Source: Streptomyces mangrovi
GTDB lineage: Bacteria > Actinomycetota > Actinomycetes > Streptomycetales > Streptomycetaceae
Assembly: GCF_900114215.1 (NCBI RefSeq)
Contig: NZ_FOSG01000013.1
Span: 1-64,000 of the forward strand
Direction of reading: 5' to 3'
Length of the DNA stretch: 64,000 nucleotides
The notes under the pieces were generated by a model. It was not told the DNA's origin, did no database searches, and was given only the letters and a program-made list of their open reading frames with translations. A program made the translations under genes and the position numbers. Position 1 is the stretch's first letter, and every line of letters starts with the position of its first letter. Positions 14,935 to 22,291 of the stretch are shown here, piece by piece.

Positions 14935-15435
14935 ATGTCCAGCGAATACGCCAAACAGCTCGGGGCCAAGCTCCGCGCCATCCGCACCCAGCAGGGGCTC
15001 TCCCTCCACGGTGTCGAGGAGAAGTCCCAGGGCCGCTGGAAGGCGGTCGTGGTCGGCTCGTACGAGCGCGGCGACCGTGCCGTGACCGTGCAGCGGCTGG
15101 CCGAGCTGGCGGACTTCTACGGCGTCCCGGTGCAGGAGCTGCTGCCGGGCAGCACGCCGGGCGGAGCCGCCGAGCCGCCGCCGAAGCTCGTTCTGGACCT
15201 GGAGCGGCTGGCCCACGTGCCTTCCGAGAAGGCGGGCCCGCTGCAGCGGTACGCCGCGACGATCCAGAGCCAGCGCGGTGACTACAACGGCAAGGTGCTG
15301 TCGATCCGCCAGGACGACCTGCGCACCCTCGCCGTCATCTACGACCAGTCGCCCTCGGTGCTGACCGAGCAGCTCATCGGCTGGGGTGTGCTGGACGCCG
15401 ACGCCCGTCGCGCGGTCCAGCACGAGGAGGCCTGA
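14935..15435 (+). CDS. bldD: Developmental master repressor BldD (cyclic di-GMP sensor)
   Basis: Represses sporulation genes during vegetative growth in Streptomyces; a tetramer of cyclic di-GMP dimerises it on DNA. The 166-residue protein has an N-terminal helix-turn-helix (residues about 8-70, with RTQQGLSLHGVEEKSQGRWK) and the C-terminal ligand domain. The signature RxD-x8-RxxD is intact: R114, D116, R125 and D128 in QRGDYNGKVLSIRQDD. ATG start with GGGGAG upstream. Transcribed divergently from pyrR; a HrdB-type promoter overlapped by a perfect BldD box indicates autoregulation. Length equals the family norm. Confidence 0.98.
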   Translation: MSSEYAKQLGAKLRAIRTQQGLSLHGVEEKSQGRWKAVVVGSYERGDRAVTVQRLAELADFYGVPVQELLPGSTPGGAAEPPPKLVLDLERLAHVPSEKAGPLQRYAATIQSQRGDYNGKVLSIRQDDLRTLAVIYDQSPSVLTEQLIGWGVLDADARRAVQHEEA

Positions 15436-15538
15436 GGCACTCCCCCGCGGCCGCCACCGCCACCGGGCGGGACCTCCGTGCGAGGGTTCCGCTCCCGGTG
15501 GCGGCCGCGTTCCGCGCCGTTGCCCCGGGGATGCCGGA

Positions 15539-15585
15539 CGGCGAGGGGCCCGGGACACCCGACGGGTGTCCCGGGCCCCTCGCCG
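15539..15585. terminator. Bidirectional terminator between bldD and nusB
   Basis: A perfect 22-base inverted repeat (15539-15560 with 15564-15585) with a three-base loop lies between the convergent bldD and nusB. A second candidate immediately after bldD pairs 15446-15459 with 15496-15509 (14 bases, long loop), so bldD may have tandem terminators. Confidence 0.85.
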
Positions 15586-15636
15586 CTTCCGAGGACCTTG
15601 AAGTCCTGAGGTACGGCCGCCCCCGGCCCGAACCGC

Positions 15637-16065
15637 TCAGACGCGCTTCAGCGTCGGCTTGAGCTCCTTCAGCCGGCCCAGCAGGCCGTTGACGAAGGTC
15701 GGGGAGTCGTCGGTGGAGAACTCCTTGGCGAGTTGCACCGCCTCGTCGATCACCACCGCGTCGGGTACGTCGTCCTCCCAGATCAGCTCGTACGCGCCGA
15801 GCCGCAGGAGGTTGCGGTCCACCGACGGCATCCGGTCCAGCGTCCAGCCGACGGCGTAGGTGGCGATCAGCTCGTCGATCCGGTCCGCGTGCTCCGCGTA
15901 CCCCTCTACGAGCTGCATCGTGTACTCACCGACCGGCGGCTGCCGCTCGTCGGTCCGCGCGTGCCGGATCCAGTCCGCCAGCACGGCCGTCACGGCGCTG
16001 TCGCGCTGGTCGGCCTCGAACAGGATCTGGAAGGCCCGTTTACGTGCCTTGCTGCGGGCTGCCAC
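15637..16065 (-). CDS. nusB: Transcription antitermination factor NusB
   Basis: Binds boxA RNA with NusE (S10) and promotes antitermination of rRNA operons. The 142-residue all-helical protein begins MAARSKARKRAFQILFEADQ and has the C-terminal signature VDRNLLRLGAYELIW and FVNGLLGRL. GTG start at 16065, only two bases after the efp stop, so the two form an operon, as in many bacteria. It is the last gene of the long efp-to-rpsD run. Confidence 0.95.
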   Translation of the reverse strand: MAARSKARKRAFQILFEADQRDSAVTAVLADWIRHARTDERQPPVGEYTMQLVEGYAEHADRIDELIATYAVGWTLDRMPSVDRNLLRLGAYELIWEDDVPDAVVIDEAVQLAKEFSTDDSPTFVNGLLGRLKELKPTLKRV

Positions 16066-16067
16066 GG

Positions 16068-16634
16068 TTAGCTGTTCACCCGTCCGAGGTACTCGCCGGA
16101 GCGGGTGTCGACCTTGATCTTCTCACCGGTGGTGATGAAGAGCGGAACGCCGATCTCGTAGCCGGTCTCCAGCCGGGCGGGCTTGCTGCCGCCGGTGGAA
16201 CGGTCGCCCTGGACGCCCGGCTCGGTGTACTCGATGACCAGCTCGACGGCGGCGGGCAGTTCGATGAACAGCGGGTTGCCCTCGTACACGGCGACCGTAC
16301 ACTCCTGGCCCTCCAGCAGGTAGTTGGCGGCGTCGCCGACGACCTCGGGGGTGATGGGCATCTGGTCGTAGGTCTGGGTGTCCATGAAGACGAAGTCGGC
16401 GCCGTCCTTGTAGGAGAACTGCATGCCGCGCCTGTCCACGGTGGCCGTCTCGACCTTGGTGCCGGCGTTGAAGGTCTTGTCGACCACCTTGCCGGAGAGC
16501 ACGTTCTTGAGCTTGGTGCGGACGAAGGCGCCGCCCTTGCCGGGCTTGACGTGCTGGAACTCGACTACGGACCAGAGCTGGCCCCCGTCGAGCTTGAGCA
16601 CCATGCCGTTCTTGAGGTCGTTCGTGGTGGCCAC
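16068..16634 (-). CDS. efp: Translation elongation factor P
   Basis: Relieves ribosome stalling at consecutive prolines. The 188-residue protein begins [18 protein letters not shown] from GTG at 16634 and has all three beta-barrel domains, ending GEYLGRVNS. The loop that enters the peptidyl-transferase centre reads KPGKGGAF, with Lys at the tip; actinobacterial EF-P of this loop type is thought to work without the EpmA/EarP modifications. No modification enzyme was seen nearby. Proline-rich proteins are frequent in this window, including the ATPase two genes upstream. Confidence 0.96.
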
Positions 16635-16691
16635 GGTCGCGGAATCTCCTGAGACTGCTGCTGCGGAAGACCGAAGGACCACGCCCCCGTG

Positions 16692-17810
16692 TCACAGGGC
16701 GAGCAGTTCCTTGGTCGTGATGGTGAGTAGCTCCGGTCCGCCGTCTGCCTGCGGGCGGACGACGAGCGTGTCGTCGATCCGGACGCCGCCCCGTCCCGGG
16801 AGGTGGACCCCCGGTTCGACGGTGACCGGCACACAAGCGTCCAGTTTACCCATGGCCGCGGGCGACAACCGAGGGTCCTCGCCGATTTCCAGCCCCACGC
16901 CGTGCCCGGTGCCCGGTTCCAGGACGTCACCGTACCCGGCCGCCTCCAGCGGATGGCGGGCGGCCCGGTCGACCTCACGGTACTCCGTCCCCGGCAGCAG
17001 CGCCTCCCGCCCGGCGCGCTGGGCCGCGAAGACCAGCTCGTACAGCTCGATCTGCCAGTCGGCGGGGGCCGGGCCGATGACGAAGGTGCGGCCGATCTGG
17101 CAGCGGTAGCCGCGGTAGCGTGCGCCCAGCCGCACGCTCAGGAAGTCGCCCTCCTCCACCCGCCGGTCCCCGGGCCGGTGGCCGGGCAGGCCGGAGTTGC
17201 GGCCGGTGCCGACGCAGGTGGGGAAGGCGGGGCCGTCGGCACCGTGGTCCATCAGGCGCCTCTCCAGCTCCAGCGCCAGATGGCGTTCGGTGCGGCCCAC
17301 CAGGATGGACTCCAGCAGCTCGCCGAGCGCGTGGTCGGTGATCTCCGCGGCGACGCGCAGCGCCGCCAGCTCCTGCTCGTCCTTGACCAGGCGCTGCTGC
17401 TCCACGGCGCGGCCCAGGCCGGTCAGGCGCAGCCGGGGCGCGGCCGCGGCCAGGGCCCGGTGCCGGACCACGGTGAGGTCGTGCTCCTCCACCGCCAGCA
17501 GGGCCGTTGCGGGCCCGGCCGCCGCGAGTTCGGCGGCGGCGACGGCCGGGTCGGACACGTCCCCGGGCAGGACGGTGCAGCGCAGGTCGCCCGTGGTGCA
17601 CGGCGGCCCGGTGCGTCCGTCGGTGACGGGCGCGGCCGGGCTCAGCAGGGTGTCGCGGCCGTCCGCCCCGAGCAGCAGGACCGCTCCGGGGACGGACCAG
17701 CCGGTCAGGTAGCGGACGTTGGCGGGCCGGGAGACCAGGGCGGCCTCTCCGCCCGCCGCCGTCCAGCGGTCGCGCAGTCGGCTGCGGCGGGCCACGTACA
17801 CCTCGGACAT
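16692..17810 (-). CDS. M24 (aminopeptidase P-like) protein with missing metal ligands
   Basis: A 372-residue protein of the creatinase/aminopeptidase P fold: N-terminal domain from MSEVYVARRSRLRD, then the pita-bread domain from about residue 140. Compared with E. coli PepP the five metal ligands read R227 (for Asp), Q238 (for Asp), H303, E332 and D346 (for Glu). The surrounding frame is intact: RLGARYRGYRCQIGRTF, TGHGVGLEIGED, TVEPGVHLPG. It therefore probably does not bind the usual two metals; it may be a pseudoenzyme or have another activity. ATG start at 17810; it precedes efp by 57 bases. Fold assignment is firm; peptidase activity is doubtful. Confidence 0.88.
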   Translation of the reverse strand: MSEVYVARRSRLRDRWTAAGGEAALVSRPANVRYLTGWSVPGAVLLLGADGRDTLLSPAAPVTDGRTGPPCTTGDLRCTVLPGDVSDPAVAAAELAAAGPATALLAVEEHDLTVVRHRALAAAAPRLRLTGLGRAVEQQRLVKDEQELAALRVAAEITDHALGELLESILVGRTERHLALELERRLMDHGADGPAFPTCVGTGRNSGLPGHRPGDRRVEEGDFLSVRLGARYRGYRCQIGRTFVIGPAPADWQIELYELVFAAQRAGREALLPGTEYREVDRAARHPLEAAGYGDVLEPGTGHGVGLEIGEDPRLSPAAMGKLDACVPVTVEPGVHLPGRGGVRIDDTLVVRPQADGGPELLTITTKELLAL

Positions 17811-17914
17811 GCCCCTGAGCGTACGCAGCGTGACACGCGGTGGCGTCCCGACACGTCCGGACCGCCCGCCGTCCGGACGCCCCTCCGTACCCGCCGCCGG
17901 CCCGGCCGTACGCG

Positions 17915-18856
17915 CTACCAGCTCGGCGGGCTGGTGAGCGCGCGGGCCACAGCCTCGTCCAGCAGCCGTGCGGTGGTGGCCACGTCCTGCCGGGAGTTGT
18001 CGATGATCGGCAGCCCGGAACCGTACCAGCCGGCCATCCGGCCGTGGATGCGGGCGACCTCCTCGTCCGACAGCCGGCGGTTGCCGGTGCGCTCGGCGTT
18101 GCGCTCCAGGACGACCTCCAGGCCCGGCAGCAGCACCACCGGGATCAGGCCGGGGCCGACGTGCCGCTTCCAGCCGCCGAGGCCGACGACGGGCCGATCG
18201 GGGAAGACGGCGTCGTCCAGGATGCAGGAGATGCCGTTGGCCAGGAAGTTCCGGGCGGCGAAGCCGCAGGTGCGGCGGGCGAGACGGTACTGCGCCTCGG
18301 AGTGCTCGTTCCAGCCGGACTGGGGGTCGGCGAAACCGGAGCGCACCCATTCGCGGACGTCGTCCAGGCTGATGTGCGCGGTGGGCACACGGCGGGTGTC
18401 CGCCCAGTACCGGGCGACGGTGGTCTTGCCGGCGCCGGCCGGGCCGATCAGCAGGACGGCGACGGCGGCGGTGTGCACGGCCTCCACCGTGACGGGGCCG
18501 GCGGCCGGGTCGGCCGGGTCCGATATCTGCACCGGTGCGCCGGGCGGCAGTCGGAGGTGGCCGGTGGCGTCCGGGGCCTGAGGCGGGGGTGCGGGGGTGG
18601 GCGCGGAGGCCGGGGGCGGCCCGGCGGGAGGCGCCGCGGGCGGGGCCGCCGGCGGTGCGGCGGGCGGGACCGGGCGCGAGGGAGGCGGGGGCGGGGGGAC
18701 CCGGTGGGGGGCGTTCCAGCCGGGGTGGACGGCGGGCTGCGGGTGCGCGTGGGGGTGTGGCGGGTGTCCCTGCTGGTGTCCCTGTGGGTGTCCTTGCGGG
18801 GAGCCCTGGGGGGAGCCCGAGGGCGGGACGGGCCGCTGCGTCCCGTACTGCTGCAT
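17915..18856 (-). CDS. P-loop ATPase/kinase-like protein with Pro/His-rich N-terminus
   Basis: A 313-residue protein. Residues 1-105 are low-complexity, rich in Pro, Gln, His and Gly (repeats such as PQGSPQGHPQGHQQGH and [15 protein letters not shown]). The C-terminal 180 residues form a P-loop domain: Walker A GPAGAGKTTVARYWA, an LDDVREWVRSGF segment resembling the acceptor site of zeta-toxin/polynucleotide-kinase-like enzymes, and CILDDAVFP. No transmembrane segment. Substrate unknown. It lies between aroQ (168-base gap) and the M24 protein, in the stretch leading to efp; its Pro-rich tail may itself need EF-P. ATG at 18856. Confidence 0.85.
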   Translation of the reverse strand: MQQYGTQRPVPPSGSPQGSPQGHPQGHQQGHPPHPHAHPQPAVHPGWNAPHRVPPPPPPSRPVPPAAPPAAPPAAPPAGPPPASAPTPAPPPQAPDATGHLRLPPGAPVQISDPADPAAGPVTVEAVHTAAVAVLLIGPAGAGKTTVARYWADTRRVPTAHISLDDVREWVRSGFADPQSGWNEHSEAQYRLARRTCGFAARNFLANGISCILDDAVFPDRPVVGLGGWKRHVGPGLIPVVLLPGLEVVLERNAERTGNRRLSDEEVARIHGRMAGWYGSGLPIIDNSRQDVATTARLLDEAVARALTSPPSW

Positions 18857-19024
18857 CCGGTCCCAACTCCGTTTCCGTCCGGTGTGCCGGCCGGGCTCGG
18901 TGGGCCCGGCCGGACGTCACCTCGTCCGTCCGGCACCGAACGGTACCTTCCCCCGGCCGGTGCCGTGTGAACGGTCGGTGGTTCGAAGTGGTGCCCGCGG
19001 CCCGTCCCGGCCCGTCCCGGTCCC

Positions 19025-22291
<3,267 letters not shown>

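Follow-up and report, generated by a model that had tools for sequence, protein, structure and literature searches.

A window of 64,000 nucleotides from Streptomyces mangrovi carries, beside efp and nusB, a gene of the M24B peptidase fold whose product appears to lack several of the residues on which peptidases of this family depend. Does such a gene encode a working peptidase and, if it does not, what keeps it in place? We addressed these questions starting from a sequence-only reading of the locus, which had assigned R227, Q238, H303, E332 and D346 to the five metal-ligand sites of PepP and had proposed a selected role other than peptide hydrolysis.

The M24B protein beside efp lacks most catalytic residues of its family

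The gene lies on the minus strand of 16692–17810, the plus strand of this interval not being the gene, and is complete, as had been claimed: an intact open reading frame of 372 codons for amino acids with an ATG start and a TGA stop. The locus comprises the following genes.

17915–18856, minus strand: AAA_33 P-loop NTPase/kinase-like gene, possible functional partner (Pfam; co-occurrence with eroded copies)
16692–17810, minus strand: putative pseudo-prolidase gene P0001, M24B fold, 372 aa (ORF, Pfam, PDB alignments, efp-nusB orthologues class-wide)
16068–16634, minus strand: efp, elongation factor P, GTG start (conserved neighbour)
15637–16065, minus strand: nusB (conserved neighbour)

Membership in the M24B fold is indicated by Pfam matches above the cut-off to both Peptidase_M24 (E = 4e-53) and Creatinase_N (E = 3e-11). 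By sequence matching to the PDB, the closest solved structures are archaeal prolidases (to E = 4e-47) and E. coli YpdF, and Foldseek ranks prolidases and Xaa-Pro aminopeptidases first when queried with an AlphaFold2 model of the protein. That model, built with 81 orthologues, has a mean pLDDT of 65 and a C-terminal third of very low confidence, and is too poor for surface mapping. Because family models place the protein among aminopeptidases, it is easily counted as a peptidase.

Alignment to the Pyrococcus furiosus and P. horikoshii prolidases and to YpdF puts R227 and Q238 at the sites of the two Asp ligands and H303 at that of the His ligand, with E332 and D346 each matched to a Glu, and an alignment of 63 full-length canonical actinomycete orthologues gives the same residue assignment. 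The window protein therefore reads R, Q, H, E, D where active M24B enzymes read D, D, H, E, E. The five residues named in the sequence-only reading are borne out by both kinds of alignment, as is its conclusion that two Asp ligands are gone, with no Asp at position 227 or 238, and that one Glu has become Asp. The losses extend beyond those it had listed, taking in both catalytic His residues (210 and 310), T240, S41 and the D-x-R-Y motif of the N domain. Gly stands in place of the catalytic and substrate His residues of the PHH and GLxxHE motifs (G210 and G310) and of T240 in the SDxTRT motif, and S41, D58, R60 and Y61, which are invariant in 63 of 63 canonical orthologues, have been lost.

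17628–17639, minus strand: residues 58–61, site of the canonical invariant D-x-R-Y motif, lost (orthologue alignment)
17181–17183, minus strand: G210, canonical first His of PHH lost (orthologue alignment)
17130–17132, minus strand: R227, canonical Asp metal ligand; C, R, A, S, G or V across the eroded clade (alignments)
17097–17099, minus strand: Q238, canonical Asp metal ligand; E, S, Q, R, A, L or C across the clade (alignments)
16902–16904, minus strand: H303, metal ligand kept here, gone in 10 of 82 clade members (orthologue alignment)
16881–16883, minus strand: G310, canonical catalytic His of GLEIHE lost (PDB and orthologue alignments)
16815–16817, minus strand: E332, metal ligand kept here, G or A in 17 of 82 (orthologue alignment)
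16773–16775, minus strand: D346, canonical Glu; Asp in 66 of 82 (orthologue alignment)

With R and Q at two of the ligand positions, a dinuclear site in the window protein is very unlikely, and the residue losses together suggest that peptidase activity has gone. Three other M24 proteins of the window genome (L003, L004 and L005) carry the canonical residues of PepP-type enzymes, and through them the genome probably retains a capacity for Xaa-Pro aminopeptidase activity.

The catalytic loss has a single origin

The orthologue adjoins efp and nusB in sampled genomes across the Actinomycetes; the nearest named genomes are those of S. verrucosisporus (94%), S. sp. CNQ085 (93%) and S. megasporus (86%). 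Genera are given here as group codes, g1 being the window genus. Every catalytic residue is unchanged in the canonical set of 63 full-length orthologues. In core Streptomycetaceae (g1, g97, g98, g101–g108, g110 and g111), by contrast, all 82 full-length orthologues lack both Asp ligands, with neither kept in any copy; we refer to these as eroded. Of the seven catalytic residues, 78 of the 82 copies have two or fewer left and 4 have three, with no copy retaining more. Within this family, the genera g96 and g99 retain the canonical catalytic set, and canonical residues also persist in other families of the order and in the class. In a tree from which the trait columns had been left out, all eroded copies fell on one side of a single branch with support of 100/100. 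An assembly error or one-off oddity is ruled out by the clade-wide nature of the loss, and a pseudogene by open frames and an omega of about 0.2.

Within the family, 198 of 200 genomes have the orthologue. The two exceptions (G399 and G501) and one genome from the order draw (G112) also lack efp, and their absences are therefore likely to be assembly gaps. In four genomes of g4 and g5, from the same order (G007, G015, G021 and G017; L175, L176, L177 and L178, respectively), efp is present and M24 matches are at paralogue level only; the efp-linked orthologue seems to have been lost in these two genera. Separately, three genomes of the otherwise intact clade (G382, G430 and G437; L170, L171 and L172) have copies interrupted or lengthened by an insertion or frameshift, irregularities that may represent sequencing error or decay.

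The former pocket is relaxed and a charged helix pair is frozen

Relative site rates were estimated separately for the canonical and eroded sets, and comparisons between the two are relative only, as the sets differ in divergence: on this footing, the seven catalytic sites move from 0.06 in canonical copies, where they are the slowest, to 0.94 in eroded copies, a rate we describe as above average, and residues 156–190 move from 1.06 in canonical to 0.10 in eroded copies. The canonical set has 43 invariant positions, 13 of which are variable among eroded copies (the seven catalytic positions, S41, D58, R60, Y61, 154 and 333); these make up 7 of 7 catalytic versus 6 of 36 other positions (Fisher p = 5e-5). 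Pooled over 484 close pairs of eroded copies, omega is 0.195 overall, reaches its highest value in the pocket (0.40) and is 0.32 in the N domain. For residues 156–190 in the same close pairs, omega falls to 0.013 with normal dS (0.57).

17241–17345, minus strand: frozen charged helix pair, residues 156–190 (EITDHALGELLESILVGRTERHLALELERRLMDHG), proposed binding face (omega, relative rate)

Many residues of this segment are charged and vary in the class outside the same order and family. The proportion of helix-pair residues shared with canonical members is 0.77 in the same family and 0.72 in the same order versus 0.42 in the rest of the class, for which reason the constraint seems older than the catalytic loss. 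This second, non-catalytic constraint is the main argument for our proposal that the protein has a binding role, in which the helix-pair face would make the contact; since the structure model is poor in its C-terminal third, the exposure of these helices is deduced from what is usual in this family of folds.

A retained fold, lost catalytic residues and purifying selection on the remainder are the marks of a pseudo-peptidase, and all three are found here. The protein is probably a pseudo-peptidase derived from M24B peptidases and no longer a working member of that family. An omega of 0.19 over codons 1–318 and of 0.013 over residues 156–190 likewise favors the selected non-peptidase role that the sequence-only reading had put forward. 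Its further suggestion, that peptide or Pro-containing substrates are bound, finds no support, since no part of the protein is less conserved than the pocket that formerly held the substrate, which differs between species.

The 3' end of the gene contains a promoter-like element

The retention of a complete gene next to efp-nusB had also been taken to imply a role for the protein. The linkage is real, but the argument drawn from it is weakened by a conserved efp promoter-like element within the 3' end of the gene, on account of which retention beside efp is, by itself, no proof of a protein role.

16843–16848, minus strand: intragenic -10-like TAAACT (TAnnnT) of efp, codons 321–323 (in-register conservation)

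TAnnnT occurs in register at codons 321–323 in 82 of 82 eroded and 59 of 64 canonical orthologues, compared with a background of 0.4% elsewhere, and is kept although residue 322 varies, being mostly K, R, T, I or M. Synonymous discordance over codons 319–330 of the eroded set is 0.30 of that expected (0 of 2,000 site shuffles), and in Streptomycetaceae dS drops about fivefold over codons 338–372 relative to the remainder of the gene. In this family, low synonymous discordance runs from the -10 to the stop codon (16692–16855), which is not the case in the class-wide canonical set. The distance from TAAACT to the efp GTG is about 210 nt in the window, with a clade median of 212. The efp gene of S. 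coelicolor (SCO1491) is in the listed HrdB regulon (PMC6344877). Judging from this pattern of conservation, TAnnnT is likely the -10 of an efp promoter common to Actinomycetes with canonical and eroded copies alike. The -10 emerged only from comparative synonymous constraint, as a consensus sigma-70 promoter scan of 15400–19500 returned no match, and no clear or convincing -35 was seen for the element. A conserved RNA structure in the efp leader was rejected as the source of the low 3' dS, the alifold energy (-17.2) being no better than that of column shuffles (-20.2 +/- 3.8); Rfam matches were all far under gathering scores. Because of the embedded element, conservation of residues 319–372 was not counted in favor of the protein, and omega was therefore also computed on the promoter-free codons 1–318, where dS is normal.

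What maintains the gene

One could suppose that the coding sequence is kept mainly for the efp-nusB promoter and leader in its 3' end and that the protein is dispensable. The in-register element that persists despite a variable residue 322, the depressed synonymous variation around and downstream of it, and the listing of SCO1491 in the HrdB regulon would all fit, but this account leaves unexplained the low omega of codons 1–318 and of the helix pair at normal dS and the open frames in essentially all genomes. Moreover, the element occurs no less in genera whose enzyme is canonical and would not need a full ORF, and we regard this explanation as highly improbable. A different possibility, which accepts a selected protein, is that the enzyme was remodelled and still catalyzes some reaction through a new metal site, either mononuclear or containing Cys, or through metal-free, creatinase-like chemistry. 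The M24 families are known to include metal-free enzymes (creatinase) as well as others that are not peptidases (ectoine hydrolase, DddP). In most Streptomyces species the five metal positions are occupied by C-E-H-E-D, all metal-capable residues. This is the commonest reading in the clade, accounting for 94 of its 162 distinct sequences (the one count for which anonymous genomes were pooled with named contigs), with G240, R344 and H211 fixed in this class, and such sequences could hold a remodelled metal site. Against such an enzyme stand at least 17 changes at position 227 on the tree, with about 8 switches of the metal-capable label, the R and Q of the window lineage, the retention of the two catalytic His residues in only 1 of 82 and 2 of 82 eroded copies, and a pocket omega that is the highest in the protein; we consider it unlikely. 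A creatinase- or DoeA-like enzyme in particular was rejected: scores against the NCBIfam ectoine hydrolase DoeA models are 48 and 40 bits, far under the cut-offs of 575 and 613, and the pocket, although C-E-H-E-D is common, lacks a dedicated active site that is consistently conserved.

One particular form of binding role would be that of a regulatory pseudo-subunit, which would pair as a heterodimer with one of the cell's active M24B peptidases and modulate it, as proposed for PID-5 and APP-1 in C. elegans. M24B proteins are commonly dimers (PMC10377022), N-domain positions 41–42 and 58–61 were released together with the pocket, and the three canonical PepP-type proteins of the window genome would be available as partners. 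These paralogues are, however, just 25–29% identical to the window protein, over part of its length, and the PepQ-type paralogue of some species (about 35%) was not seen in the window genome, leaving this arrangement distinctly unlikely. We think it likely instead that the protein is a lineage-wide pseudo-prolidase whose catalytic site was lost once, whose pocket is drifting, and whose fold and charged helix pair are selected, with a probable non-catalytic binding or scaffold role. Its ancestor would have been an active efp-linked M24B dipeptidase or aminopeptidase in which the dinuclear metal site and catalytic His residues were lost once, on the branch to core Streptomycetaceae after g96 and g99 had split off. 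The pocket would have drifted continuously since then. The charged helix pair (about 156–190) seems already to have been gaining conservation in those relatives, within the order and family, that are still active, and the fold, above all this helix pair, is held by strong selection, the protein presumably working as a binding or scaffold protein through the helix-pair face.

A P-loop protein co-occurs with the eroded copies

The AAA_33 protein encoded just upstream of the M24 gene has the Walker A motif GPAGAGKT. Its N-terminus is Pro-rich, and among solved structures Atu3015 (1zp6; E = 8e-7) is the nearest to it in sequence. Where Streptomyces loci have sufficient flanking sequence, nearly all show the P-loop gene a short distance upstream, and in g108 it lies 3–16 kb upstream on the same strand. 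It is present in all eroded genera tested (g1, g97, g98, g104, g105, g108 and g109) and absent from both canonical genera of the family (g96 and g99); it is found in 16 of 16 Streptomyces versus 0 of 182 other class genomes at E <= 1e-10. The gene appears on the same branch as the catalytic loss, which makes one evolutionary event on the tree, so the co-occurrence is suggestive only. On this co-occurrence, the P-loop protein is the best candidate for a partner or client of the pseudo-prolidase. Whether the two form a new two-protein module beside efp, one that originated with core Streptomycetaceae and that almost all Streptomyces possess, in which a dead peptidase acts as scaffold or sensor of a nucleotide-using partner, is a more speculative matter that we view as doubtful.

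Comparison with known M24 proteins

Our literature search, which had incomplete coverage, found no description of the Streptomyces efp-linked M24 protein or mention of SCO1492; the SCO149x mentions that were read concern efp and nusB. The M24 pseudo-peptidases it did find are eukaryotic; the present one is bacterial and nearly universal in a large, tractable genus, and canonical sister genes in neighboring genera of the family offer a before-and-after comparison of an enzyme turning into what may be a binding protein. A linkage between Xaa-Pro aminopeptidase and efp has been noted in Firmicutes and read as peptide clearance (PMC7327921). The idea that an efp-linked M24 protein aids EF-P by cutting Pro peptides has so far been argued from gene neighborhood, and in core Streptomycetaceae, to judge by the residues, the cutting of Pro peptides appears to have gone while the linkage to efp stays.

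The efp-linked PepQ/PepP-type M24B peptidases of other actinomycetes share with the window protein an orthologous gene, the efp-nusB neighborhood, the fold and the intragenic TAnnnT, but they keep both Asp, both His and both Glu residues together with PHH and D-x-R-Y, a full set that the window protein lacks. The N-terminal domain of Spt16 (FACT) is a pita-bread aminopeptidase-like domain that has no peptidase activity and binds proteins, a conserved surface patch being implicated (PMC4741192). It resembles the window protein in having an M24-like fold that, in ours apparently, has no peptidase role, although it is a eukaryotic histone-chaperone domain and ours is a stand-alone bacterial protein with another conserved stretch. 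The aminopeptidase P-related domain of PID-5, in which several metal ligands are replaced (Asp to Asn or Gln, Glu to Gly) and whose reported interactor is APP-1 (PMC10377022), is likewise a pseudo-M24B with replaced metal ligands, differing in being part of a eukaryotic eTudor-domain protein with APP-1 as its reported partner. Ebp1/PA2G4 (LmaPA2G4) is also an M24 protein without peptidase function that is retained for a non-catalytic role (PMC3888471), but it is eukaryotic and a relative of methionine aminopeptidase. Finally, creatinase and the ectoine hydrolase DoeA have the M24 fold without being usual metallopeptidases and show weak sequence similarity to the window protein; theirs is a dedicated, conserved active site, whereas the pocket of the eroded clade varies from species to species.
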